64,000 nucleotides of DNA. Origin: Chrysoperla carnea. Lineage: Eukaryota > Arthropoda > Insecta > Neuroptera > Chrysopidae. Within the stretch, counting starts at the first letter, position 1, and every line of letters starts with the position of its first letter. The translations under genes and the position numbers were made by a program. Under the pieces are notes generated by a model. That model was not told the DNA's origin. It saw only the letters and a list, made by a program, of their open reading frames with translations, and did not search any database. Of this stretch, positions 6,092 to 64,000 are shown in pieces. The stretch is from assembly GCF_905475395.1 (NCBI RefSeq), contig NC_058338.1, forward strand, positions 90,877,435 to 90,941,434, read 5' to 3'.

Positions 6092-9000
6092 CTATTGTAA
6101 AATGTTTTCCGCTTTTGCCGTATAACTTTTCACTTTCGAAAAACATAATGGTGGAAAACGTGTATGACCTAAATCAAATTTTGTACATGTTTGACTTCCA
6201 TTTTTATATTTTGTAACGACCGTATAATCAATGAAACCCAATAAAACATTTTTTCTTTTTTTATAATTTTGAATTTGTAGTTCCTAGAAGAAAAATTTTT
6301 TAATTAATTAAAAACAAACCGAGTAAAGCCAGGTTCAGGAACCTCATGGTGCCATTTAAAATTTCTAAGTTAGGGTGGCTCTAGGTGAAGGGATCAAATA
6401 TAAAATTCTCTAGGTAGCATTTTTGAACTTCCTCCTCGATATCTAAATCGAAGTGTTTTCACTCAAAACAATAATCACATAAGGTCAATAGTTATTAATT
6501 AAGGGTTGATACTTTTGAATTGATCTCACTGTATAAATTGAAACTACAATGGCATTTGATAAAAAAAAAATGAAATTTAAAGTTATGTTTATGAATTTAA
6601 ACAACAGATGATCATTGAATTTGACATTTAAATTTTATTCAAGTGAGTTTTTAAAATTGTTTTTATGACTTTTAATTACTATTAAAGCGTATTAAATTTG
6701 ATGGATAAATTATTAAATTGTGCTATTATAATTTAATAAACAAATTTTAAAAACTTAATTTTTGATTAGAATAATAGCGACTCATTTCCTGTTTTAATCA
6801 GTACGCATTTTTATCACTAGTTAGCGGGATTTATCTGATTTGAATTCGAATATTTTCATTGGCTTTTAAAATGGTAAGTACAAGTATTGCCAACTAGTAA
6901 TCTAAATTTTTGGATCAACTGAAATTGGGCTCACTCCTAGTTTTAATTAGTACGAATTATTATCGCTGGGGAGTGGCATTCCCAGTTATCAATACTATCT
7001 TAAAGAGACATGTACTCAAAATAAAATAATTCAAAAATATTGAATGCGAAATTTTTTGCGGTCGTAGATGCTATATAGCGCAAGGACGTAAAAATTCACA
7101 TACTGAATACGGCTATTTATACAGATATTTTTCGTCAAATATTAAAAAAAGAGAAGATTTTTCTTCATAATTTATATTAAAAAAATTAATTACGAAAAAA
7201 TTAACCTAAAATTAATTGTACACTTACAAGTTGAAATATTTGTGTATTAAGATCAGAATTCCTTGTATCAGCCGTTCGCCTCTTATATTCACGATAAAAT
7301 GTTTTCATCGTTTGCTGTTTCTGTACAATTAATGTAACAAAATTCTCATGTTGACAAAATTGTCCTATTAATACATTCGGATTTCTTGGATTTGGATATT
7401 TTAATTGTGACACACATTGTGCTGGCTCATCCGGTGTGGTTAACATTAGCACACGTCCATCGGGGAAAAAACGTAAATATCGATAATATGCGACTAAATG
7501 CCATGGTCTGTAGAATTGATCTTGGAAACTATTTTCACCGGCACGAACATACGTTGTTTTACTTATATAACATCCATTGTATTTTAATCTGGGTCCTTGG
7601 ATAAACATATCACGCCATGATGGATATAATTCACTATTTGCATATATTTCGCTATTTGCATTCCATGCTCTACATTTGGAACAATATTCAATTAATTTTA
7701 AACTGGGTACAGTCAACCACATCTCCAAATGTGTCCGCCGCTAACCACATCCAATACTTAAAAATGGTTTTCTCTAAAAGTTCTTACCTAGTGCATGCTA
7801 ATTTCCAAATTTCTGAATCTCTACTGCATAGATAAAAACCTCGACACGTACATCCAAAATTTTCAAGAGATTGCATATCAAGATCCGATGAAACAACCCA
7901 TCGTAATATGTATAAAATGATTTCCATAGGTAGAGCGGAAATATGAGTGATCTATTAAAAAGAAAAAAGGCTAATGTCAGAAATATTCAATATCTTAAAA
8001 AAAGTATCTAGTCGAAGACAAAGCTCAGTTGGTTAAATCCAAACCAATTGTGTACGCGGTATGTATATGGTAGCGGGTTCGATTCCCGCTGTCACAACAA
8101 AAACTTAATTAAATTAATGGTTTTGTTAGGCTGGCGTAGTGCATGGTGTAAATAAATGAATTTATCAGCGAAACAGCAGTTAAAACATATACTTAATGGG
8201 CCATTTTAATCTATACACCTAAATATTTCATTTTGTAGTTAACCAATCAAGAAATAATTTAAATATAAGATCCAATCGGTTTTGAATGAAATATTTGATG
8301 AAAACCACACAATAATCGTTAACTTTGTCAGTGTCAAATGTTTATCAAAATAACGATTTTTTAAGAAACGGCGAGGTTTAGGCAAAAATGTCGAAGGACA
8401 AAAAATAAGTATAGTTCAAAATATCAACAAACTTGTAAGCGAATTCACGCGCGTAAATTTACTTTATGACCAAAATGACTTTTTCTATACCCTCAAACAA
8501 ACAGTTTTCGCCCAGTCCCCAAAAAATCGGAAATGTACTTTTAAATTGCGTGGTTTTGGTGATTTTTTGGTTTTAATATCTCGATTATATACCTAAATGA
8601 ATTAATTTTTTTTAAATCCCCGAACCAAAAAAAGGGATGTCATAAGTTTCACCGATATGTGTGTGTGTCTGTCTATCTGTCTGTGACATCGCAGCGCCTA
8701 AATGGATGAATCGATTTTGATTTTTTTTTTTTGTTTCTTTGGAAGGTAATTTAATTGAGAGTGTTCTTAGCTATGTTTAAGTGCGAGTATAGGGTTCCGT
8801 CCCCAGAACAACTGAAAAACAGGCGATGATTCTCAAAATTGGTTCAGTTGGGAGAAGGTTCTAAAGAAAAAGGTAATTGAATGGAGAGTGTTCTTAGATA
8901 TATTTCAAGTGCGAGTTTAGGGTTCCGTTCCCGAAAAATTTGTGGGGAGGTTTTTAAAATTTTGTAAATTTCACTTGTCAGTAGAGGTGTTAAAGGCACA

Positions 9001-25690: not shown

Positions 25691-27211
25691 ATACAAAAAA
25701 ACTGATCTAGGAAATTGGGGCAAAAATCGAAATTTATTTCCAATGGATGTAGTTGCTCATTTACGAACTCAATACCACTTTTTTCGTTTTACCAAAGAAT
25801 GTATGTATCTGTATTCTTTGGTTTTAGGCACGCTATAAAAATTTCTTATGATCTCTTTTCACTTTTGAGTTATTATATGTTCACGGATAGACGGACGGAC
25901 CAACGAAAATTTACTAATTAAATGAGTCAAAATTATAACATTTCGTAACTGAATTCTAAAAAATTTTGCAAATAAACATTAAACGTGTTTTTGGCACACG
26001 ATCACGGCTGTAGCGAGAAAACAAGTTGGGAAACTTCACATCTAATGCAAAAAACACATTCATGTTGCAACTAGTTTTATAAATAGCTATTAAATCAGCA
26101 TAAACGAATTCACATTGGAGAAAAAACCATTTTCATTTCAAAAACTATTTTTGTAATAGAAAATTTCCTCGACAAAATCATTTAGCCTGGCAAACAAATA
26201 CGCACTGGAAAAAATAACTCATGCGTTATTTGTAATAAAAAATTAAAGGGCACCCTGTATATATCCTTATTAATATAATATAACTAATAGAGTTCTTAAG
26301 AGATCAAAGAAGCCTTATTTGGGTGGTCAAGAAGGTAAGGCGGATGATTTTGCACTGATGTTTTTTAACCCCCGAACCAAAAAAGGGTTTTTATAAGTTT
26401 GAACGCTATGTGTGTCTGTCTGTGGCACCATAGCGCCTAAATGGATGAATCGATTGAATTTTTTTTTTCGTTTTAAAGATAATTTAATGGGGAGTGTTCT
26501 TAGCTATGTTTCAAGTGCGAGTTTAGAGTTCCGTACCAGGAAAAACTAAAAAATAGGCGATGATCCTCAAAATCGGTTCAGTTTGCTGAAGGCTCCAAAG
26601 AAAAAGATAATTTAATGGAGAATGTTCTTAGATATTTTCAAGTGTGAGTCTAGGATTTTAGAATTTTTTTAAATTATGTAAATATAATTTGTTATACATT
26701 GGAATTCTTCAACGAGTAACTTCTAGGAAAATTGTGTATATTATTGAAATTTGTGTAAATTGCAAGTGATTGCATTATTGTACTAGGTTTTTTTTATATC
26801 AATTTTTCATAAATCATTAATTTAATGATTAATCAATCCATCATGAATACATCACATGATATAAATTGCATAATATTATTATTACATGTAATTGCGTTTT
26901 GAAATGTAATTCAAAAAAACTTAAATTGCCAATTCATAGATGGCATATTTATCATCAAAATAAATTATAGACAACATAAGCTTTATTATTTTTATTGAAC
27001 ATTAAAAATTATTTTATCTATGATTATATATTCTGTGACAAGTGTGTAGTAAATGTATTTCAATTTTGGAAATGTATTTTAAAATATATACATGTACATA
27101 TTAAAAAAATATATATAATAAATTATAAACATAATTAAGTTATTGATATTTTAAAAAAATAATTAATTTTTATATATTTTATTTAATTAAAACGAATATA
27201 AGTTTTTAAAA

Positions 27212-33200: not shown

Positions 33201-36200
33201 TCTCTGGCGAGATTTCTCTCAGAATTGATGGATTGAAGATTTCAGACTCGAAAAATTCTCAACCTGACGCACTGCAGGTTTCTGTAGGTGCAAATAACAA
33301 TGCAATGCATGGAGGTTTTCACCATAATAATGTATGGAGATTTCACCGTCCTCTATACAGACTCTACAAGTGGGATCATCAAAGATCCGCATGTTATGTA
33401 GATGATAGTTCAATCATGTCCTCGACAGTATTCTCAAGACTCGCAATATCCTTCTCAACTCTACTAAGTTTCAGACGAGCACAGTAATATTGTCAGCAAA
33501 TCAAAACAGGCTTGTCGTATCCATTCCCTGATTCAGTAAATTGGCAGAGTGGGGGTGAAATTGAGACGAACAATCGAATATTTTCAAAGCTGTAAATTAC
33601 ATGAAAATCATTTTAGCGGTTTAAAAGATGTGAACTCTTTTATCAGGGGTTTATCTAGTTTTATCAAATTTACTATTTATATTTACCTATTTCTAAGCAA
33701 CCATAATATGCCACCGCGAAGTGTGGAAGGGCACAGCTAGTTCCATATAAAAAGTAATAACAAAACGAAATTTTTTAGTAATAAAACTGAGAATGATTTT
33801 TTTTTTCGAACGCTGTGTAGTTACCGCGCTTTTGTTCATTACTGTTGGTATTATTCTTTGACAGAATTATATGTTCTTTGAGAAAGTTCAACTTAACAAA
33901 TGAAACGTTACAATACATAATAATAGATTTCATTTTTATTTATCCAGTGAGGTATTACGATCTCAAGCCGAAGGATATGTTCGTGCCATACAATGGAATC
34001 TACATTACTACTATAATGGATGCTGTTCTTGGTCATGGTATTATCCGCATCATTACGCTCCATACGTCTCAGATATTAAAGAATTTAGTAATTTGGATTT
34101 ACATTACGATTTGGGCAGACCATTTTTACCATTCGAACAATTATTGGCTGTTTTACCATCAGCCAGTAAAAGTTTATTACCTGAAGTCTATCAAAAATTG
34201 ATGACCGATGAAAATTCACCGATTTATAAATATTATCCAACCGATTTTCAAACAGATCTCAATGGTAAAAGACAAGAATGGGAGGCTGTTGTATTAATTC
34301 CGTTTATTGAAGAGGTTAGTTAAAATTATATTTTTACAAGCTTTTATTTAGTTTCAACCTGTCCGTTATTTTTAATCAAATCTTGCAAGTTAAATTTGAA
34401 CCAATTTTCGGTTTCCCATTGAGTTAAAATTTTACATGCATTTGTAAATCGAATACAATGCATTTTTATTGTAAGTATGGGTGGCCTTATTTTCCCATTG
34501 CTTGCACCGTATTAGATATATCTCTGTGTCATAAAAAACGGACATTTTAGTATATATACTCTATTAAATCCGTGCGATTTTTGAGACAAAGAGTGTACAT
34601 ACAGTTGTGACACAGAGGTACAAAGATTTTTTTCGTAAAATCACTGTTTACCCGTGAGGGCGCAAATTAGAATAAAACTCTGTTGCCCATTTTCTCCAAA
34701 ACTAAAAGAATTGAAAACATTTCTAGAAAATACTTTCAAAGTTTTTGCAAACACTTATATTTAACACTTTCTATGCAGGGTATTTCAATAATTAACGTCA
34801 ATTGCTGGTTTTCACTTGTTAGTTTTAAATTAAAAATTTAAATAAAAAATATTTTTTTAGGAATAAGCTTTGACTGTACTAAAAAGTAAAAAATAATTTT
34901 TCTTACGAATTAGTCATACATGATTTTTTGTAAAAACTTGAGGCGCTAAGAATCATTCTTGATATTTTAAATTGAGCGCGTCCAGCTTTTACAAATATTC
35001 ATGTAGTGACTCATAAGCTTGAACCATGAAGGTTTCTTATAACCTTCATGGCTTGAACCTAAAAAAGTATATTTTATTTAAATTTTTTTTAGAATGCGGT
35101 ACAGCTTTGGAAAAGTTTTTAATAGATCTATCTTCTTGTTTTATTTTCTGAGTTTCAAAACTCTATGAATATCAATAAAAAAAAATGAGACATCTGTTTT
35201 AGTATAGATCGAAGATATTCGGTTAACGCTCTTGAAGATTAGGTGCAGCAGTTTCCAGAGCTATTCGCGCCAAAATTTCTAAGCTATGATTCATATGATG
35301 AGCCTTCTTTTACCAATCTGTTTATTTATTAATTTCCCCCAACTTTAACAAGCCCTATCCAGAAGATATCAAAACTGGAAAATTAAGATAGTAAAATGGG
35401 ACGCTTTTACTCTATTCAATGTTAAGTGCACTTTTCCAGCGAATAACGACTGTGTTAAATTTTCTTGTGTTATTCTTCCTGGCGTACAGGATTAGTTATT
35501 TGACTTAATTGATTTAAAAATAAATATTTTTTAAATCTTTTTTTATAGAAAGATCTTCTTGATGCAATGAAATCCTGTGATAAAGAATTAACATCTAGTG
35601 AAAGACATCGAAATAGCCATGGACCAATGTTATTATATGAATATGTTGTAGAAAGTCAAGGAACATATGAAGCTCCTGAATATTTTCCAAGGATTACAAA
35701 TAATCATACCACACTTAAATTGTTTACCTATAATGATATTCGTGTACCGGCTGATAAATTAATTAAGGGATTGTATCCTGGTGCTAAATTTGATACATAC
35801 TATCCAGGTTTTCCGACATTTAAACATTTAAAATATACACCGAGTTTAGAGAAACAAGGTGTGCGTGTGTTTGATCAACCAAGTCGAAGTGATAATTTAT
35901 TATTGAATATAGAAAATGATGAAAAACCACCACCTTTAGAAGAGTTAGCGGAAAAATTGTTAGGGCAAATTGTGTGGGTTAATTGGCCACATTTAACTGA
36001 AGCAAAGTAGGTATAATTAATATAATTCTGAAAACATAGAAAAATAATTATTTGACATCAATTAATGTTAATATTAATTTTTGAAACAGTGAAACCTGGC
36101 TAAGGGAGACATCAAGGGAGGTATTCCACTTACCCAGTATCTCAGATATTCAGGTATAAATAAATATCTGTCTCATTTACAGAGGATTCCATTAATAGAG

Positions 36201-51110: not shown

Positions 51111-51363
51111 ATTCATTATTACAAGTTACAAGCTTTTATTTTACTTACTATGTATATACATATGTACGTTTGTCCGGATGAGATCTTGCAAATCCATTTT
51201 GAAGCAGTTATCGCCAACCGATTGAGCTAAAATTTTGTCCGAAACAAAAGGTAATCACTTTTTAAAATTAAAAGGTATATTGAGCGCCTCAAGCTTTTAC
51301 GGATAGTCATAATATGAGTGACTCATATTATGACTATTATAAGTAGTACATAAGTAATACAAT

Positions 51364-52405: not shown

Positions 52406-55400
52406 ATGATAAAGGATACAAATGCAATACCACACATGGATTCGGAGAAATACGATTTAGAAAAAAATGATACGATTAATAGTGAAACGGAAAAATTAAC
52501 TGATATAAATAATACATGTAGTGTTTTAATTGTAAAATCACAAAATAATATTCATAGAAAATGTGAACAAGAATATGTGATAAAAGTTTATCAAAAACGT
52601 TGGTTTTTATTAGCGTTATTTATAATTATTACAGCGTTAAATGGTATACAATGGGTACAGTATTCGATTATTACGAATATTACGATGCGTTATTATGGTA
52701 TCACTTCACGAATGGTCGATTATACTTCGTTGATTTATTTGATTACGTATTTACCGTTGGTATTGCCAGCATCTTATTTTATGGATAAATATGTAAGTTA
52801 TCTAAATTAATCCATAATGAGACTGTCCATAAAATTTTATTTTTTTAATGTAATGAATTTCTGTGATAAATTTAATTTTGTCCGTGCAATTATTTTTCTT
52901 ATTTTTTAAATAAGTTCAAAACTTATCATTATACATCCAATATCTTTGAATGAAATTTTTCTCCAGTTAGTTTTTTGATTGTAGGTATTAAAATTTTAAA
53001 TATCAACACACACCTGTTCGTTTTTTTTAAAGAATAATTAAAGTAATTACATATTAGCTTAAATAATAGGTTTCCTGTCTTAATAAGTGTCTGTAATCTG
53101 TACTAGTGTCTTGATTTCGGAAACACAAGCGTCAAATTTAACACACAATATCTGTATGACAAATTTTATCACTAATATAAGAACCGTTTAAAATTTCTCC
53201 ACCCAAATACCAATTTGAATGTTCCGGTAATCTACTTAATTTCGTTAACTACTATATACGTATATATCACAACAGCTTCTATCAACTAAAACTGACAAAA
53301 TAACACGGACTTCACACTAAACAATACATGCGAAGCGAACCACGTACAATGTATATACTCGCCAATAGATGTCAGGAAAAGTCATATTTTGCAGTTGATG
53401 TTTCAGTTTTACCAGAAAACACGGATAAAACGACGTTTTTTAAAAATGAAACCTAGCTAGATCGATTTTTCGGTCTCGAAACCCCCTGTATGATAATTTT
53501 CAAGAAAATCTTTGGAGTCATTTCCGAGATTGTTGATATATGCAAGAATTGCTCGTTTAAATATATCAGATTTTCAACGTGCTTTCCAGGATGTCAATGT
53601 CAACGCATGTTACAGATCTATTTAGCATTATGTAATGCCAATAAATGTTCGTTTTTATAACTGCTCGTGTTGCTATTCTAGCAAACAGATATTGAAGGTA
53701 CAAAGCTCATAATTTGTGAAGATATCGAGATGCAAATGTTTCATTTCTTTTGCATACTTCAATTTAATCATTTAGAAGTTACTTGAATATAAATAGTAAA
53801 CATTTGTTATTTTAAGTTGAATAAATCAATTTATGCAGTGTTTAGGATAACGTAACAGTATGGATTGATTCCTAGGAGGAATTGATTCCTATTTACATTT
53901 ACGTATATTATTACAGGCAAACAATTAAAATATAAATTTTTACTTATATAGGCAATTAATTGAACTATTAGTAATGCGGATGGCCTATACAGTGTGTCTA
54001 CTTAAGTTGACTACACATGGAAAACTTTTTATACCATGCATATATGTAATATGCAAGGTATACTAAGTTTAGTCCCAAGTTTGTAACGCTTACAAATATT
54101 GATGCTATGAACAAAATTTTGGTATAAGTGTTTATAAAATTACCTAATTAGTCCATTTTCGGTTGTCTGTCCGTCTGTCTGTCTACACGATAACTCAAAA
54201 ACGAAAATATCAAGCTGAAATTTTTACAGCGCAGTCAGGACGTAAAAATTTTGGTCGAGTTCGTAAATGAGCAACATAGGTCAATTGGTTCTTGGATCCG
54301 TAGGACCCTTTTTGTAAACCGTTAGAGATAGAACAAAAGTTTAAATGTAAAAAATATTCCTTATAAAAAAATAATCAACTTTAATTTTTTCGTAAACATC
54401 ACTGTTTACTCGTGAGGGTAACAATTAACGCAAATTAGGCGTTAAATGTATAGTATGTATTATATGGGTATAACAGTTATATATGTGTGACATGTATGTT
54501 TGTGTAATGTGATAGAGTGAGTAATCAACACTGTCTATGCATGGTATTTCAACAATTAACTCAGCCAATTGTTTGTTTTCACTTGTTTATTATAAGGTTT
54601 ACAATAAAAAGTTATTCTTTATACAAATCTCTGCTTTTGAAATATGTTAACATTCAACTATTCATTTTTGACATTGAATGTACAGGAATGTACAGGTGTT
54701 CATAAATTGAAAACGTTCGGTTCGATAGAAATATTAATGGTTGTTTAGAAATGTAGACCTTTTTGAACAGATAATAAGGGAAACGGTACAAGAAATCATT
54801 CTCGAGACATGTAGGAGTGTATTTAAACAATTTTGTAAAAGAATAATTACATGTATGGAACATGAATAATTTTTCCCCTATCAATATACTTAACAAAATA
54901 TACAATGAGAACGTTTTGGCGTAATTTTTGTAGGGTATGCGTGCGACATTGGTTACGGCATCGTTAGGAAATTGTATAGGTTGTTGGTTCAAAGTATTAT
55001 CAGCGGATCCAGATAAATTTTATATTGGATTCATGGGACAATTTGTATTGAGTTGTACACAACTCGTTATAATTAGTACGCCATCAAGTTTTGCAGCCGT
55101 TTGGTTTGGTGCGAATGAAGTTAGCACGGCTTGTGCATTAGGTGTGTTTGGACAACAATTGGGTATGGCATTAGGATTTATTTTACCACCGTTAATGATC
55201 CGAAATCATGAAGAATTAGATTCAATTGGAAAAGATTTTTATCGCTTTTTCATGTTAAATGCGATAATTACAACCGTTGTATTGGTTTTAACAATTATAT
55301 GTAAGTTAAAAATTTATTTTCTTTGCTACTTTTTTTTATCCTTCGCGATATATACTTTTTACTGCAATCATACCCAAAAATATCCCTTTCAATTGCTTTC

Positions 55401-58400
55401 ATTGCTAGCAAAAAATCTTTTCGAAGCTTTCTTTTTTTTCGAGCTTCCACCGAAAAAAATTCAATAAAAAACCATAAAATCTCTTAAAGTATGAAATTAA
55501 TTTTAGCATTATTTTTTATAGTTTGTCAAAAACAACCCGAATACCCGCCAAGCAAAGCTCAAGCCTTAATCCGAGAGGGAAAAGCTGCATCGGATAATTC
55601 AGTGATGGAAACAGTTAAATCATTTAAACGTTTATTAAAACAAAAATCGTTTTTAACTTTATTAGCGGTTTTTGGAGTAACATTGGGTGTGTTTAATTCA
55701 TTTTGTACGTTTCTAAATCAAGTTATATTGGTATATTTCGCGGTAAGACATCAATTTTAATGCAATAGGGTATTTGCCAATAAAAATGCACGAATCTAGA
55801 GGTAAATTAGGGGGGAGGAGGATATCCAAAACGAGATATTTAGGTGTATAGATCAAAATGGCCTACCCTATATATTACCTAATGAAATTTCTTTTGGTAA
55901 GATTTTATGTCAGATATAGTTCAACTGTATAAGTCAAAGTATATTTATTCTAAACAAAAAATTTGAGTAACGAGATAAATTCGTGAGTAACGTTCCAATA
56001 CTCAATACTAGAAGGCGTTCCGTTACTCAGTATTCGGTACATACGGTTTATTACAGCTCTACTTGCAAGTGACACTACATAATGGCAAATACACTAAATG
56101 CAATTAATTTAATTACTTCTGTTCATTATTAAATTTTTTTAGGGTGGTCAAGTTTTTGCAGGACAAGTTGGTTTAGTAGTTACGATTGCTGGAATGGTGG
56201 GTTCATCAATAATAGGATATATTTTGGATAAAACGAAAAAGTACAAGTATGTACAAATAGTATTCTATCTTTTAACGTATTCTGACAATTCCTTTGTTTT
56301 CCGAAGATTCACGATATCATTACGAATGATTCGTTGCGAGTCTCTGGAGGACTAAGGACTATAATTTTGAAAATGTAATTACGCTAAACTATGCTCAAAT
56401 TTTAGCAAAAAAGTTTAGCGTATTTACATTTTCGAAATTATGGTTCTTAATGTACTCAATATTAGTTTATATTAAATATTTTCTTTAATTTTTGGACAAT
56501 CTTAATGGAAAACCTTTTCTGTATCTGTTAATATACGATGTACCCGTGCCTACTTCGTGATATTTATGATATAAAATCATTATTTAATAATGTAAATAAA
56601 TGATAGAAAAAAAAACTAAATAAATATTTGAATATAAACAAAGATAAATTTTCGGCAACTTCAATTATCGATTTAAACATATTTTTAAAATACTGAAACA
56701 AAATGTACTCATTTTGGCATTTTAAATACTTTATCTAATGGAGTCGTTTGATGAATATTAAAAATATTATATAAATAACATCTTTGTAAACTTGTTCGAG
56801 TTTTGTAGACATGTTCGAGGACCCTTAAAATTCATTCGATAGCAGAGATACCAAAACGATTCTAAGCGGTCGAGTAATTGTATTTTACACATGCACGCCT
56901 CCCAGTGTGGCTACGATTTACATTTAGCCGGTACCATATAACACACAAATTACCATAAAATAAACAAATTAAACATCCAAAGGTAGAAAAATTCACACCC
57001 AGATCAAAGTTGGTAGGATTGTTCCAAACACCATCATAAATGAAATATAAAAGTCCTCATCGATCCGATACCTGGGAAAAAATTTACTCGGTGTCAAAGG
57101 TCACAAAAAAGCCACCGTTTAAAATTTAATAATATTTTCTAACAAATTTACCCTGGAATTTTTGCAAATGTAAATGTAAATCGTAGCCACACTGGGAGGC
57201 GTGCATGTGTAAAATACAACTACTCGCCTCTTGGACCAATAGAATCTATTTTATATCCTTCAAAACTTTAGTTCGTAAGTCAATTAGTAGAAATTTCCTT
57301 TTTATTGCATTATGTATTTTACATTTTCAAAAACCAATTCAAATTTACTTCGAAAACAATATAGAGTACCATGACGTCTTGAATGACATCACGGCTTGGC
57401 ATATAATCATTTTTGTGTATGTACGTTTAAGCAGTTGTAATAAAATAACCTGCTTCATTCTATTAAAATGTAATAATGTTTACATAGCGTTTGGCATGGC
57501 GTAGCGTAATACTTACTAATTGTTATTTGCTGCCACTGTAACTGAACTTCTAATTTAACTAAAATTATATTATAAAAATCATAATAAAATAATTCTTATT
57601 TTTTATAAAAAATAATTTTGTGTGTTTTGTTATCTACATATCATGATTAATCTTTAAAAACTTTTATCCAATCGATTTATTCTTAGTGGACAAAAGCCTA
57701 TATTACTGTAAACATTATTTAAGTCGAATGTTAACCAATTTAAAATTTTGGTGCTATAATTGACCAATATGGATTAAAAAATCAATAAATTAAAATCTTG
57801 TCTTGTAATTTAAAAAAAAAAAATCATGTAATATTTTTTTATTTCAGAATAACAGCAATTATAGTTATCATAATGAGTACGATTGGATTGATTCTTTTCA
57901 TGATTTCTTTGAGGACAAAATCATATACATTAGTTTTTGCAGCCAGTGCATTTTTAGGGTAAGTTATCTAAGGTTTATTTAGAAAGAATTAGGGTATCAT
58001 TTGTCAAGTCATAAAAATAGTTTTTTCGGTTAAATGAGCCATTATATCATAAACTGAAACAAAATTAAGCTGTATATTCCAGAGATTATTTCTAGGTTTC
58101 TTGAGTCTACATTAAATGTAGACTCAAAGTTTATGATGAAATCAGCCAAAAATATATTCTTTATTATTACAATATCGTTTTTTTCGATGTTGTTTTGCGA
58201 TGGTGATAATTTGTAATTATTCTAAAATTACTTTATTAAATTTTCACTTCAGATTATTTATAACAACATTTATAAGTGTGGCATTCGAGTTTGCCGTTGA
58301 ATTAACATACCCTGAAGCAGAAGTTAATGTTGTTGGTTTACTGCAAACTTGTTCTCAAACCACTGGTGTATTGGGTATTATAATATTTGGTGACATTATC

Positions 58401-58580
58401 GAAAAATACGGTGAATTATGGTACAATGTGAGTTTGTGTGCGTTTATGTCAGTTAGTGTGATTTTAACATTTTTAGTCAGTAATAAATTAAAAAGACAAG
58501 CTGTCGCTGTAACAGAAACAAAATTATATGAATTAACAGCTGTTAGTGAAAAAATGTTAAATAATAAAATAAAAACATGA
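52406..58580 (+). CDS. FLVCR-family MFS transporter, complete with first terminal exon (6a)
   Basis: Exons: 52406-52792, 54934-55300, 55522-55742, 56143-56246, 57848-57958, 58253-58580; 505 residues. After a hydrophilic N-tail of about 65 residues come 12 predicted membrane segments with FLVCR landmarks: VYQKRWFLLALF, GIQWVQYSIITNI, ITYLPLVLPASY, VWFGANEVSTACALGVFGQQ, QPEYPPSKAQ, FAGQVGL and AFEFAVELTYPEAE. These match FLVCR1/2, which carry choline and ethanolamine (first reported as heme exporters) across the plasma membrane or mitochondria. The substrate here is inferred. It lacks the FLVCR1-type long N-terminus. Unusual feature: exon 6 is present in two further downstream copies. Introns hold MITEs at 54033, 56871 and others. 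Confidence 0.93.
52793..54933. other. FLVCR-family intron 1
   Basis: About 2.1 kb. Identified contents are a Helitron-like fragment (53140-53580: CTAATATAAGAACCGTTTAA ... 'caagaattgctcgtttaaa') and a complete family-D element (54033-54547). The remainder has no recognised feature. Confidence 0.5.
54033..54547 (+). mobile_element. Family-D non-autonomous element, terminal inverted repeats
   Basis: ATACCATGCATA at the left (about 54033) and TATGCATGGTAT at the right (54536-54547) are inverted ends of the fullest copy of this dispersed family. The interior holds CCGTCTGTCTGTCTACACGA, 'gttagagatagaacaaaag' and GTTTACTCGTGAGGG. Confidence 0.65.
56247..57847. other. FLVCR-family intron 4
   Basis: About 1.6 kb. 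It holds a stem-loop at about 56361-56445 (AATTTTGAAAATGTAATTAC against 'gtatttacattttcgaaatt') and the MITE 56871-57226; the rest is unassigned AT-rich sequence. Confidence 0.5.
56871..57226. mobile_element. 356-bp MITE with roughly 60-bp terminal inverted repeats
   Basis: CGAGTAATTGTATTTTACAC + ATGCACGCCTCCCAGTGTGG (left) pairs with CCACACTGGGAGGCGTGCAT + GTGTAAAATACAACTACTCG (right), with one mismatch in the first 40 bases, continuing through GCTACGATTTACATTT. The ends are well preserved, so it looks young. Family not identified. Confidence 0.85.
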
Positions 58581-58734
58581 GTAATAAAGTTTCTTTTTTT
58601 TTTTAATAATAAATACATTTTTGTATATTTTCATCAATATTTTTACTCCCTTTCTTTTAACTCGTAGTGTCTGCTCGTCTGTTTGACTGCCGAAAAAAAA
58701 AAATGGGATCAATTTTTATCCCTTTTCCCACGAA

Positions 58735-59035
58735 CCCATATAACAAGAACGTGAAATTCCTATGCCGAGCTATAAGCATTCGTGACTTAATTTACGGCGC
58801 CTATCTGGGCGGGATCTAATCACCGGAAGTTTCGTAATTTGTACTGCGAATCAGATCTTTTTCTCGAACCAGAGAAAAAGCGATGTTTACACAATTAAAA
58901 CAATTGAAATTGTTTTCAATCATTTTCAATTGATTGAAAACAAAAGACAGTCTGATGCACAGTACAGAGAGACCTCGCTCAAATTGGCGCATTTTTCCTG
59001 CTACCCACTCCACTTGAGTTTCACGTGGGTTCGTA
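58735..59035. mobile_element. Foldback MITE, family B (copy 3)
   Basis: ACCCATATAACAAGAACGTG at the left; GAGTTTCACGTGGGTTCGT at the right. The inner CCTATGCCGAGCTATAAGC is the family marker. It lies between terminal exons 6a and 6b. Confidence 0.7.
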
Positions 59036-59504
59036 CCTTTTCCCGTGATCCAATCAAGTTGAAATTTTGCAGGCAGATTTGTGGTGACTCGTGGTGATAA
59101 AATTAAAAAAAATTAACAAAGAAAGGGAGTATAATAAAAACTTGGTTTTGATGGGTTAGTTTTTTTCAATACGAATAACCCAATAAACCCATTTGAATAG
59201 AAATCTTTTACGTTGGATATACGAAAATCGCGTATTCTAAGAACAAAAACAGTGGGCTTTTACGGCAAAAAAAAGCGACCGCATGTTCTGTTAATTTAGA
59301 AACCGTTATATATTTTTTCTGTAGTTAGTAAGAGATAGATAATGTATGGGGGGTGCCAAATTCACAGAAAGAGAAGACGATATTTGATAATGCACTTTTT
59401 CTGCAGTATAAACCCAATATAACACTGATTTAAAGTCACACAACTCACTTTGTATCTTCTTATACTGCCTATTTGGCACAACTATTGAATAAATAGTAGT
59501 TTCA

Positions 59505-59765
59505 AAAAAAAATATAACTTCCTATGCCAAGCTATAAGCGTCCGTGGCTGAATTTAAGGCGCTTATCTGAGCTGGGTCTAGTCATCGGTTGTTGCGTACT
59601 TTGTACTGCGCATCAGGCTGTCTTAATGATTGAAAGCTTTTGAAATCAATTGATTGAAAACATAAGGCAGCTGAATGCGCAGTACTAAGTATGCAACGTT
59701 CGACTCTTCTAGATAGGCACCTTTTCTCCTGCTACCCTCCCACTCTAGTTTTACGTCCTTTAATA
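59505..59765. mobile_element. Foldback MITE, family B (copy 4)
   Basis: CTTCCTATGCCAAGCTATAA and GCGTACTTTGTACTGCGCAT at the left; TTTTACGTCCTTTAATA at the right. It also lies between exons 6a and 6b, 0.5 kb from copy 3. Confidence 0.7.
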
Positions 59766-60211
59766 TAAATGTTCTTGAGTAGACTCTAATTCAGGCGTGG
59801 ATTCAGCGCTCAAAAATGGTTATGATCACAGCCTATCCAATAATCGGCTAAGTGCGAGCCAAAATATGAACTCGCTCATGATCGATTTAGTAGCCCTGAC
59901 TAAGATTTAAGATTTTTGTAAATTAATAAACCTGTAAAATATTAGTTTGTTCGCTCACAAAAATTAAAAAAGTGAAACTATTGAACCAATTTTGATGAAA
60001 CTTGTACAACTTCAAATGATATAAATAACACATCTAGGGAGCAAAAGTTAAGAATATCTCAGATCTCATGTTTGAACATGAGATCTGAGACAACTTTTGT
60101 GGGAAACATATTTCTATTTCTGACTTGCCTTAAAAGAAAGACCTTATTAAAGGGTGACCAAGCACTTCTGGGATATACTGTATAGTGTATATAAACAGTA
60201 GGCTATAATTA

Positions 60212-60624
60212 TTAGACCATTAAGCACATAGACTGGGCATCGCCTATCTTTCCCTACAGTGAGAGGTGTGCCAACATCTGAGGTAATTGCTTGGGTCAGT
60301 TAGGGACATTTATTAAAAAAAATACATTTATCAAAAGAATATAGGGACATTTTATCAAGAAAACTTATATCGAATGTTAAATTTTCATTTCACAAAATGT
60401 TGACATAAAACATCGTGATTTAATTGAACTTTTTTGCTTTTTGATTTAAGAAAATACTTATCACGTATCACTTTACATTTTTCTTACGAATCTACAATGA
60501 CAAGTATGGCAACAATACTTTGTTTTGACATTTCTACACCGCCGGCATGATGGATTTGACCTTAGCAATTACCTCAGATGTGGCCACGCTTAAAATCCTT
60601 CAGTCTATGAAACTTAATGGTCTA
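60212..60624. mobile_element. 413-bp inverted-repeat MITE just upstream of exon 6b
   Basis: TTAGACCATTAAGCACATAG + ACTG (left) matches the inverse of CAGTCTATGAAACTTAATGG + TCTAA (right). Inner CCAACATCTGAGGTAATTGC and GCAATTACCTCAGATGTGG also pair. The TIRs are interrupted by small indels. Confidence 0.8.
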
Positions 60625-60793
60625 AGTTATTTAAATATCTTCTGGGTATAGGCAATAAATATAAATTGTATTTCCTATGATTAATACCAAATAAATATAA
60701 TAATTCTTCTAAACAATAATCAAATCAATCGGTGGGATGATTGTAATAATTTTTAATTATTCTAAAAGTAACTAATTAAATTTTTAACTTCAG

Positions 60794-61121
60794 ATTATTT
60801 ATAACAACATTTATAAGTGTGGCATTCGAGTTTGCCGTTGAATTAACTTACCCTGAGGCAGAAGCAAACGCTGTTGGTTTAATGGTGTCGTGTTCTCAAA
60901 CCACTGGTGTTTTGGGTATTCTTATATTTGGCGCAATTATCGAATATTATGGTGAATTTTGGTATCATGTCGGTTTATGTGCCTTTATATCGCTTAGTGT
61001 GATTTTAACACTAATGGTCAGCAATAAATTAAAAAGACAAGCTGTCGCTATAACGGAAAAAAAAGCATATGAATTAACAGCTGTTAGTGAACAAATGTTA
61101 AATGAGAAAATAAAAAAATGA
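60794..61121 (+). CDS. FLVCR-family alternative terminal exon 6b
   Basis: Preceded by an acceptor (TTTTTAACTTCAG), it begins in the same phase as exon 6a and is exactly the same length (328 bp), ending in TGA. The protein differs from 6a at roughly 21 of 108 positions by hand count and keeps LFITTFISVAFEFAVELTYP and SNKLKRQAVA. About 60 nt upstream of the exon are also alike in all copies ('taattattctaaaa.ta'). A following AATAAA-type signal lies at about 61126. Spliced after exon 5 it would give a 505-residue protein. It could instead be the remnant of a tandem gene duplicate whose first five exons are absent. Confidence 0.75.
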
Positions 61122-61397
61122 AATAATAAATAATATTTTTGTAATAATACAATTTATATTTATTTTAACTTCCTATTTTTTAAAGCATGAGCAATGAATC
61201 CAATAGCCATGAAAGCATAAATCCAACAATAACATATAATAAACTCGATAATCTATTTTAACGAAATGTGCTAAGCTGGATAAATCGCATCTTATCACTA
61301 AATCAAAATCGTATACGCTAGTAAAGTAAAACGCCATCTCCTGTTTAATTTTTTAAACAGTGGTTATTATTATTATAATAATTATATTATTAATTTG

Positions 61398-61534
61398 TAC
61401 AGGGTGTCCCCCATAAGTACAAAGCTTCTGATTGTGCATCGTGCATCGGTAAAAAAATGGAAGAGGACTTTTCGTCATAGAATTTTATTTTCTACCTGAT
61501 GCAAAAGCTTGGGGTACTTACGGGACACCCTGTA
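61398..61534. mobile_element. 137-bp MITE with TACAGGGTGTCCC ends
   Basis: TACAGGGTGTCCCCCATAAG + TAC (left) and GTACTTACGGGACACCCTGT + A (right) form terminal inverted repeats with one mismatch, flanked by T on each side. The CAGGGTGTCCC end is widespread in insect DNA transposons; the family is not determined. Confidence 0.8.
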
Positions 61535-61869
61535 TATACTTTACATAAACTTAATAATGATTATAGACATGGACACTATACAAAGATAATCAACTCAAAC
61601 GAGAGAATTGACAAAATTTGTCAACGAAATAGGATAAATTTTAGCGAAGTGCATTGCACGAAATAAATACGAACAGATGCGAACATACGAACGAAATACT
61701 ACATAAATGCGTTATATTTTAAAATTAAATTCGCGCCTTACTCTCTTTTCTCTATCACGATGCAAAAGGTATACTACTACCATATTTTTTAGACAGATAT
61801 TTGCTTACATGGAGTTGAGTGTCCTTGTACAGTGTCCATGATTACAGACGTAAAAATTAACTTACTTAC

Positions 61870-62014
61870 CCTTATGTACTGCTATAACCCACTTTTTTTT
61901 CTCCAATTCATGAGAATACCCAGGAAAACGGTAAAATTGCAATTCTGGATTGTTACTGGGTGTGTTTTCACAATTACTAACACAACACTTCCGATTTGAT
62001 TGTTTTTTACTCAT
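61870..62014 (-). CDS. THAP-domain first exon, orphan
   Basis: The 48 codons begin MSKKQSNRKCCVSNCENTPS and end KKKWVIAVHK at an AGG|GTAAGT donor (GT at 61869-61868). C-x4-C, the Phe-Pro turn (YRFPGYS) and the invariant Trp are those of a THAP finger; the C-x2-H half must be in a following exon. No such exon was seen leftward to 61122. It may belong to a gene with a distant exon, a broken gene, or a transposon-derived fragment. It lies antisense between terminal exons 6b and 6c of the transporter gene. Confidence 0.6.
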
Positions 62015-62329
62015 TTTATTGAATATTAAATCATTATTTAATTTCACTTGTCCAATGACTTTTTAGAGAGCTATCAATTTTGTATTTAAAAAAAAAATAC
62101 AAGTTGCCGCAAAAATATTTTTGGCAACAAAAAATTTTATATGTTTGCTAATATAGGAGTTCTAAGATACCGCTACCCTACAGGTCTGCATTTTTGTATT
62201 AGGATATTATGGGAGAGGTATCTGATGAATTTTCAGAATACCTCAAACATTTACCCAAAAATGTCTTATAACTCTCCTACCATTTTTACTAAACCATTGT
62301 TTACAAACATGTGAAATTTACAAAATTTA

Positions 62330-62665
62330 AAAAACCCCCGATAAATTTTTCGAGTTTGGAATTCTAAACTCGCACTTGAAACGTCTAAAAACAGTCTTCA
62401 TTAAATTAATCTTTTGTTTAGAGCCTTCTCCAAACTGAACCGATTTTGAGTATCAACGTCTATTTTTTAGTTGTTCCGGATACGAAACTGAACCCTAAAC
62501 TCACACTTGAAACATAGCTAAAAACACTTCCCGTTAAATTACCTTTCAAACGAAACAAAAAAATCCAAATCGTTTCATCCGTTTAGGAGCTACGATACCA
62601 CAGACAGGCAGACATAGTGGTCAAACTTATAACACCCCTTTTTTGGTTCGGGGGTTAAAAATAAA
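62330..62665 (-). repeat. Family-C repeat (inverted copy)
   Basis: Reads on the minus strand from CCCCGAACCAAAAAAGGGGT (62657) through 'gtttggagaaggctctaaac' to AACTCGAAAAATTTATCGGG. Another copy follows at 63415-63720 in the opposite orientation. Confidence 0.65.
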
Positions 62666-62883
62666 ACACGATTAACATTCCTGTCGATTTTTTTCAATTA
62701 GTGCATCCTGTACAATCGATGTCAAGAATGATCAGCCGAATGTTAGTATTTAAATATCATTTAAAAAGTTTTCCACATGTAGTCAGCTTAAGTACACATC
62801 CTGTATAATATGATATCTCAGCGGATGATTTTGATAATTTTAAATTATTCTAAAAGTAATTGATTCTATTTTTTTTACTTCAG

Positions 62884-63187
62884 GTTATTTATAACAACAT
62901 TTATAAGTGTGGCATACGAATATGCTGTTGAATTAACATATCCCGAACCAGAAGCAAATACTGCTGGTTTAATGTCTGCATTTTCTACATTCACTGGTGT
63001 ATTGGGCATTGTTTTATTTGGTGATATTATTGAATATTATGGTGAATTTTTGTATCATGTCATGTTGTGTGCGTTTATGATGATTAGCGTGATTTTATCA
63101 TTTTTAGTTAGTAATAAATTAAAACGACAAGCTGTCATTATACTCGAAAAGAAACAATATCAATTATCAGCTGGTAGTGAAAAATGA
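62884..63187 (+). CDS. FLVCR-family alternative terminal exon 6c
   Basis: Acceptor TTTTTTACTTCAG, same phase, 304 bp, stop TGA at 63185-63187. It encodes LFITTFISVAYEYAVELTYP and SNKLKRQAV but is more diverged in the last two membrane segments (GLMSAFSTFTGVLGIVLF, LCAFMMISVILSFLVS) and has a tail eight residues shorter. AATAAA is found at 63191 and 63212. Spliced after exon 5 it would give a 497-residue protein. The open frame through all three copies argues for use rather than decay. Confidence 0.75.
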
Positions 63188-64000
63188 TAAAATAAAAGAT
63201 TGAGTTCTCAAATAAAACCATGTTTTTTATTTAATCTACCCATTCAGCCAAAAGCTGAGCATTCACATGCCTTCTAATGCTTAAAATTATATAAATCTTC
63301 AACAATAGACAATGATTTTGTAAAAATAAATTTTATATGGATGAAGCAAAAATAATTAGACATAAAAAATGATAAGTTAAACTAACTCCGTAAATATCTC
63401 AATTTGCAAAAAAATCCTTTTTAACCCCCGAACTAAAAAAAGGGGTGTTATAAGTTTGACCGCTATGTGTGTGTGTATCTGTCTGACACAGACAGACGTC
63501 TGTGGCATCGTAGAGCCTAAACGAATGAACCGATTTTGATTATTTTTAGTTTGGTTCGGAGTTTATGATCTTCAAAATCGGCTCAGCTTGGAAAAAGCTA
63601 TAAAGGAAAAGGTAATTTAATCGACAGTGTTCTTAGATATGTTTCAAGTGCGAGTTTAGAGTTCCGTATTTTAAAATTTATTTAAATTTTGTAAATTTCA
63701 TTTGTAAGTAGATTTTTACCTCGAAGAAATTATCGTTTTAGATCGTGGGACACCACGGTTTTTTAAAATGATAAATAATACATACTTGAAACTTCGTAAG
63801 TGGCTTCCTTTTGACGAGTCTACCAAATTTTCCTCTACTATTTTTTTTGAAAAAGCTGTTTTTAAATGAGCATGATGACGTCATATTTGAGTTACTTTTC
63901 TGTAAAAACGCAGCAGGAAATTTGTCAAACACTAAGATCACTTGATAACATTAATAATGCCAACACTTTGGTGGCGCCATTGGTCGCCATATTGAATTTT
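63188..64000. repeat. Right edge: family-C repeat and unassigned sequence
   Basis: 63415-63720 is a plus-strand family-C copy starting at CCCCCGAACTAAAAAAAGG. The remaining sequence to 64000 shows no exon that I can support. Confidence 0.5.

Follow-up and report, generated by a model that had tools for sequence, protein, structure and literature searches.

A single gene of the FLVCR family (SLC49) in Chrysoperla carnea probably encodes at least three proteins by means of alternative last exons, the choice between which would be made by splicing coupled to polyadenylation; we put the probability of this reading at roughly 0.7. The gene lies on the forward strand of the window, i.e., the 64-kb stretch of DNA that was analyzed. 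Its exons 1–5 (52406–57958) join in frame to each of three tandem copies of the last exon, referred to as 6a, 6b and 6c, giving predicted proteins of 505, 505 and 497 amino acids, respectively. These isoforms would share nine complete membrane helices and half of the tenth. The common donor of exon 5 would be spliced to 6a, 6b or 6c, after which the transcript would be terminated at the poly(A) site that follows the exon used. If cleavage occurs downstream of 6a, both 6b and 6c would be lost, whereas skipping of 6a would expose 6b, and so on. Presumably, one promoter serves all isoforms. The properties of tandem alternative last exons, namely homologous copies that each have an acceptor, the same phase, their own stop codon and an AATAAA, are all present, and coding constraint is found on each of the added copies (6b, p 0.0005; 6c, marginally, p 0.045). 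A first-pass annotation of this DNA had already proposed a common core with three C-terminal modules; the common core and selection on the modules are supported by the in-frame gene model and by the codon model.

The coding part of exon 1 runs from the ATG to a GT donor (52406–52792), joins in frame and is similar to FLVCR2 by phmmer, with a Trp aligned to W102 in TM1 of that protein. Exons 2 (54934–55300), 3 (55522–55742) and 4 (56143–56246) have AG/GT borders and in-frame joins. Exon 5 (57848–57958) ends at the common donor GG/gtaagt and, judged from the alignment with FLVCR2, inside TM10. A tblastn search of the 64-kb window with the three isoforms, at E up to 10, gave no second copy of exons 1–5, matches to these exons elsewhere than in the gene being at chance level only. 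This agrees with the earlier statement that exons 1–5 are not repeated between the last exons, and the separate upstream gene copies to which 6b and 6c might have been joined, named at that time as a refutation, do not occur within the window.

By sequence similarity, the gene is assigned to the FLVCR (SLC49A1/2) transporters of the major facilitator superfamily, which upholds the initial family assignment. With phmmer, the isoform with 6a matches FLVCR2 over nearly its full length (residues 54–491 of 505; 6e-104), and the isoform with 6c does so at 3e-99. FLVCR2 and FLVCR1 are the only relatives with a solved structure in the PDB at E up to 0.001; no other SLC49 member was matched there. Identity to FLVCR2 amounts to 38% (166 of 432 aligned residues), and Pfam MFS_1 is matched at 3.9e-28. 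When exon 6a was used to scan viral contigs, none of 11 pattern matches was confirmed, and the same holds for the 67 pattern matches of the 6a isoform in contigs from bacterial and archaeal genomes, as expected for an animal gene.

The homology to human FLVCR1 and FLVCR2 includes part of the functional residues. In FLVCR2 numbering, the choline-pocket residues W102, Q191 and F324 are kept, whereas Y325 is replaced by Asn. The gate network R200, S203 and E435 reads Ser, Ala and Glu, so that only E435 is kept. In FLVCR2, S203A alone abolishes transport (PMC11168923). The changed gate residues make a choline transporter of the human kind less likely, but do not affect homology with the family. 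As the core lacks Y325, R200 and S203, choline should not be assumed as the substrate, and it is doubtful whether one can be deduced from the human protein. The available text of PMC13160678 contains nothing on insect FLVCR proteins or on these residues.

The gene also differs from its human relatives in having three endings. The coding parts of 6a (58253–58580), 6b (60794–61121) and 6c (62884–63187) measure 328, 328 and 304 bp, respectively. All three are directly preceded by ACTTCAG, have one entry phase and are open to their own stop codon, which comes earlier in 6c. The positions, acceptors, phase, frames, stops and AATAAA signals of the first-pass annotation were all borne out, including the equal length of 6a and 6b. 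In blastn comparisons, 6a is 83% identical to 6b over 435 columns (E 5e-128) and 79% identical to 6c over 369 columns (E 3e-87). Similarity extends beyond the stop codon for about 50 nt between 6a and 6b, and for 10–16 nt after the stop of 6c compared to 6a and 6b. The first 10 codons do not differ at all among the copies, versus 55 of 100 codons overall (exact p 0.0002), which confirms that the entry segment LFITTFISVA is kept. Besides a shorter tail, for which the alignment suggests an A run that is one base shorter and moves the stop forward as the cause, 6c has four changes at positions common to 6a, 6b and both human proteins. An assembly duplicate is ruled out, as 14–20% of the bases differ between the copies and the sequences lying between them are not alike. 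The gaps between the copies (2.2 and 1.8 kb) contain pieces that are repeated elsewhere in the window, while Tandem Repeats Finder reported three short rows, none of which spans the array. No RNA family was matched at gathering score. An unrelated THAP-domain exon lies on the opposite strand between 6b and 6c, and was counted against the main reading. The array may extend past window position 64000.

Similarity between the copies also reaches into the intron. As found by blastn and alignment, a shared intron block including the acceptor precedes 6a (58199–58252; ATTATTCTAAAA ... ACTTCAG), 6b (60735–60793) and 6c (62823–62883), all on the forward strand. With 49–61 nt before each copy, the roughly 60 nt of shared upstream intron claimed before is recovered. 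Downstream, the first AATAAA starts within a few nt of the stop codon in all three copies, and the 150 nt after the stop contain 2, 2 and 3 such motifs for 6a, 6b and 6c, respectively, compared to 0.39 expected from the rate in the window; these motifs were called by sequence match alone and, being located in homologous copies, are not independent evidence.

The copies are old, with NG86 dS values of 0.34–0.49. NG86 dN/dS ratios for the three pairs are 0.32, 0.50 and 0.37, and their bootstrap intervals all lie below 1; other estimators implemented in Biopython give 0.41, 0.64 and 0.39 (LWL85) or 0.27, 0.39 and 0.29 (ML). In a codon model, omega = 1 for all branches is rejected (2dL 19.2, p 1.2e-5). 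Omega is 0.135 on the 6b branch (p 0.0005 versus 1) and 0.43 on the 6c branch (p 0.045, marginal), with which the ancestral branch of 6a and 6b may be merged, since the tree has three copies only; for 6b and 6c jointly, omega = 1 is rejected with p 0.00015. A ratio near 1 for the added copies, mentioned in the first-pass annotation as contrary evidence, was thus not obtained, the result for 6c being the weaker one. The 6a branch is indistinguishable from 1 (p 0.39), which reflects the low power of 100 codons, and no significant difference in omega exists between the three branches (p 0.20). Purifying selection acts on the set and on 6b, and more weakly, marginally so, on 6c.

These values bear on the question whether one or both of 6b and 6c are mere remains of a tandem duplication that affected only the 3′ end of the gene, with a frame that is still open but with little or no use in splicing. 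That the frame is open says little against such an origin, since in 4000 neutral trials the frame remained open in 25% at about 24 substitutions and in 6% at 54, the codon-model estimates for 6b and 6c, respectively. The shortened tail of 6c, its four changes at otherwise common positions and its branch omega marginally below 1 fit a relic as well. However, neutrality is rejected for 6b and for 6b together with 6c, and the acceptors are preserved in all three copies, which makes this explanation unlikely. Still less probable is that 6b and 6c belong, as 3′ ends, to separate genes with the remaining exons lost or located beyond the window, or that they are joined by trans-splicing. The window does stop at position 64000, and the intervening gaps, with their repeated pieces and the THAP exon, would suit such separate genes; against this, tblastn at E up to 10 found no other copy of exons 1–5 in the 64 kb, and the copies have the same strand, the same phase and just the short intron block kept before each of them.

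The alternative-last-exon reading could be supplemented, rather than replaced, by a docking-selector mechanism. PGRP-LC, an immune receptor for which exon choice by competing RNA pairings is reported, would serve as the model, with a docking site directly downstream of exon 5 and one selector ahead of every last exon. A similar intron block lies upstream of all three copies, and when the pairing energies of these blocks with 57959–58000 are added up, the total (-46.4 kcal/mol, compared to a shuffled mean of -33.3) is reached by 30 of 1000 shuffles. On the other hand, 25 of 797 windows tiled over 52801–64000 pair as well or better, a few of these overlapping 57959–58000 itself, and when each block is paired separately with the initial 220 nt of intron 5, its shuffled versions do equally well (511, 591 and 476 of 1000 reach its strength). 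The intron block may simply contain the branch point. The pairing is marginal, and a choice of exons by this mechanism is improbable here.

As the last exon starts inside TM10, the exchanged module comprises the cytoplasmic half of TM10, which is nearly unchanged, TM11, which is most changed, TM12 and the tail. The last two helices and the tail, originally given as the module, are indeed part of it, but the exchange is not restricted to them because half of TM10 is replaced too. In a 13-residue stretch of TM11, nine positions vary among 6a, 6b and 6c, compared to three between human FLVCR1 and FLVCR2. Omega of this stretch is 0.89 versus 0.25 elsewhere (p 0.0003), although it was picked after the data were seen and a scan of all 13-residue windows gives p 0.084; the high value may represent relaxation. 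Q447 of FLVCR2 (Q471 of FLVCR1) is matched by Gln in both 6a and 6b but by Thr in 6c. In simulations of the human proteins, this residue bonds transiently to the hydroxyl of choline, and its replacement by Ala affects transport (PMC11168923). Tuning of the substrate by the last exon would rest on this one aligned residue. It is conceivable, if rather doubtful, that terminal-exon choice switches a substrate-contacting residue and its surroundings in TM11, and so provides different substrate specificities from a single core. Most likely, the 6c isoform would differ in substrate preference or gating through the TM11 site at which human FLVCRs contact choline, and its tail would be altered as well.

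Tandem, homologous and mutually exclusive 3′ exons are likewise found in Drosophila pip (terminal exon clusters) and PGRP-LC (3′ variable regions). In contrast to the transporter described here, pip is a sulfotransferase gene, treated under untranslated regions, and for neither gene does the available text of that source describe an exchange of transporter helices (PMC9013439). GMCbeta4 of Anopheles gambiae also combines a common upstream part, its first exon, with alternative C-terminal exons, of which four are predicted; these carry a substrate-binding region and two isoforms were seen as ESTs, but the product is a GMC oxidoreductase instead of a membrane transporter (PMC1891103). As insect genes with terminal exons of this tandem alternative type have been described before, the novelty concerns the gene and not the architecture. 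Our literature search found no paper on alternative last exons in FLVCR genes or in insect transporters, nor on duplicated last exons. Another insect member of SLC49 is the Drosophila histamine transporter HisT (CG1358), which is 52.37% identical to FLVCR2 (PMC9604546); compared to the 38% found here, and with the reservation that methods may differ, this makes orthology of the gene to HisT doubtful.

There is dispute about the substrate of FLVCR proteins, or else it varies between family members; haem, choline and ethanolamine are named for the human proteins (PMC11168923) and histamine for fly HisT (PMC9604546). The locus would represent a natural chimera set, with one core to which only the segment between the middle of TM10 and the C-terminus is added in different versions. 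A comparison of the isoforms would show how the swapped helices contribute to substrate choice. The locus would also be a case of tandem alternative last exons in a polytopic transporter, with exchange of a substrate helix, and thereby widen the range of genes with this architecture.

The core of the transporter gene comprises exons 1-5 (52406-52792, 54934-55300, 55522-55742, 56143-56246 and 57848-57958), which join in frame, and each of the three tandem copies of the last coding exon, 6a (58253-58580), 6b (60794-61121) and 6c (62884-63187), can be joined in frame to it. The predicted isoforms ending in 6a, 6b and 6c count 505, 505 and 497 residues, respectively. The donor of exon 5 is GG/gtaagt and the acceptor ACTTCAG is the same at the three copies. 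By sequence similarity, the predicted protein groups with FLVCR2 and FLVCR1: a PDB sequence search (E up to 0.001) returned five distinct sequences, every one FLVCR2 or FLVCR1, and 166 of 432 positions are identical to FLVCR2. MFS_1 is the top Pfam match, while an NCBIfam search gave three matches, each far under its cut-off.

The first-pass annotation described three exons with an acceptor, same-frame entry, an own stop and a nearby AATAAA, and this is borne out, with AATAAA lying directly 3′ of each stop. As each copy has these signals and no second core of exons 1-5 was found within the 64-kb window, the simplest reading is that 6a, 6b and 6c are alternative last exons of one gene. Further copies may follow, since the window ends 813 bases past 6c. 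Acceptor choice would then compete with 3′-end cleavage at the closer poly(A) site. Selection of the last exon by RNA pairing between the intron blocks, i.e., the similar short stretches 5′ of each copy, and positions 57959-58000 is marginal at best: the summed pairing of the three blocks is matched by 30 of 1000 shuffles, 25 of 797 tiled windows pair with them as strongly, and none of the blocks taken singly stands out when paired with the first 220 nt of intron 5. Similar arrangements have been described: Drosophila pip and PGRP-LC are reported to carry homologous terminal exons or 3′ regions in tandem (excerpts of PMC9013439). Searches of open-access papers, a scope outside which most subscription journals and genome annotation fall, gave nothing on an FLVCR gene with an alternative last exon or exon duplication, and none of the listed titles (10 of 21) from a broader search dealt with this. 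Tandem alternative last exons are a known architecture, with an FLVCR-family gene as an unusual target.

The homologous piece is small, consisting of 49-61 nt of intron, the exon and a short stretch beyond the stop (about 50 nt for 6a-6b; 10-16 nt beyond the 6c stop). 6a is 83% alike to 6b (435 columns) and 79% to 6c (369 columns). The tail of 6c is shorter than in the other copies; judged by eye from the alignment, the cause is an A run that lacks one base there. As the first-pass annotation had noted, the entry segment is kept: the first 10 codons show no differences among the three copies (exact p 0.0002), and the first 17 (58253-58303, 60794-60844) are the same in 6a and 6b, synonymous sites included (exact p 0.0009). 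Synonymous changes between 6a and 6b affect 0 of 17 degenerate codons at the entry versus 13 of 69 later, the contrast being weaker for 6a-6c (2/15 versus 11/54) and 6b-6c (2/15 versus 16/56). This pattern fits protein plus splicing constraint, or gene conversion.

Besides the transporter, the window contains XRN 5′-3′ exonuclease, F-box and short-chain dehydrogenase exons (five of eight scanned frames); two frames gave no match and a sixth is a THAP exon. The mix of genes and repeats gives the impression of insect DNA. The THAP exon lies between 6b and 6c on the opposite (minus) strand (61870-62014; Pfam PF05485, E 9e-6) and encodes the first half of the domain, led by ATG and ending at a GTAAGT donor; a search for the second half down to 46000 gave nothing convincing. 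Six distinct perfect hairpins (arms of at least 11 bp, loops 2-8, A/T-only arms left out) occur in the 64 kb, three around 6a and 6b (58101-58127, 58910-58943, 60057-60090) and three elsewhere (627-651, 35024-35051, 51303-51337). A dispersed element flanks 6c on both sides in opposite orientations (62301-62661, 63418-63707), with other copies at 26362-26692 and 8606-8985.

A dN/dS near 1 had been set beforehand as speaking against the proposal. NG86 estimates are 0.32 for 6a-6b (bootstrap 0.17-0.62), 0.50 for 6a-6c (0.26-0.95) and 0.37 for 6b-6c (0.20-0.73). In a custom-written GY94-type codon model (100 codons, three-branch tree), omega is 0.32 for the whole set and omega = 1 is rejected (p 1.2e-5). 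Per branch, omega is below 1 for 6b (0.135, p 0.0005) and more weakly for 6c (0.43, p 0.045), whose branch may include the 6a+6b ancestral branch. For 6a it is 0.50 (p 0.39), an illustration of the low power of short branches. The three omegas do not differ significantly (p 0.20). In 4000 neutral trials (100 codons, stops only, indels left out), the frame was still open in 25, 17, 8, 6 and 5% of cases at 24, 30, 45, 54 and 60 substitutions. Left unconstrained, 6b would have taken on about 23 neutral substitutions and 6c about 53 (codon model), which makes the open frame a weak argument for 6b and a moderate one for 6c. The argument for coding function is carried by the codon model rather than by the open frames; 6b is very probably, and 6c probably, functional coding sequence.

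The first whole residue of the last exon aligns to FLVCR2 413 (human FLVCR2 numbering throughout), 18 residues ahead of Y431, which sits in the TM10-TM11 loop (excerpts of PMC11168923), and the exon is therefore likely to start inside TM10. The exchanged module, proposed earlier as the last two helices plus tail, would contain TM11, TM12 and the tail, but also the remaining part of TM10. The TM10 half and loop are nearly constant (amino-acid differences in 0 of 23 codons for 6a-6b, 3 of 23 for 6a-6c). Over 436-448, the first half of TM11, 9 of 13 positions vary among the copies versus 17 of 69 in the rest; for human FLVCR1 and FLVCR2 this is 3 of 13 versus 20 of 69. Omega here is 0.89 versus 0.25 elsewhere (p 0.0003) and not above 1. 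The stretch was picked after inspection, and a scan over all 13-residue windows gives p 0.084, making a concentration of change in TM11 suggestive, not established.

In FLVCR2, W102 and Y325 hold the choline ammonium group, and Q191 and Q447 form transient bonds with its hydroxyl in simulations; alanine mutants of these glutamines alter transport (excerpts of PMC11168923). Alignment-computed positions 102, 191, 325, 447 and, in FLVCR1, 471 (equivalent to Q447) match the numbering of that paper. At the Q447 position, 6a and 6b encode Gln and 6c encodes Thr. Among 82 aligned positions, four (F423Y, F425Y, Q447T, T484S) are shared by 6a, 6b and both human proteins and differ in 6c; none sets apart 6a alone or 6b alone. 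In mosquito GMCbeta4, predicted alternative C-terminal exons likewise bear a substrate-binding region (excerpts of PMC1891103). In the pocket, the core retains W102, Q191 and F324, and in the gate network E435 is retained. Within 54934-55742, Asn replaces the pocket residue Y325, and Ser and Ala replace the gate residues R200 and S203. As S203A abolishes FLVCR2 transport (excerpts of PMC11168923), the protein must compensate or work unlike the human one. The fly SLC49 member HisT transports histamine, and human FLVCR1/2, assayed alongside, showed no such transport (excerpts of PMC9604546), so that substrates do shift within the family.
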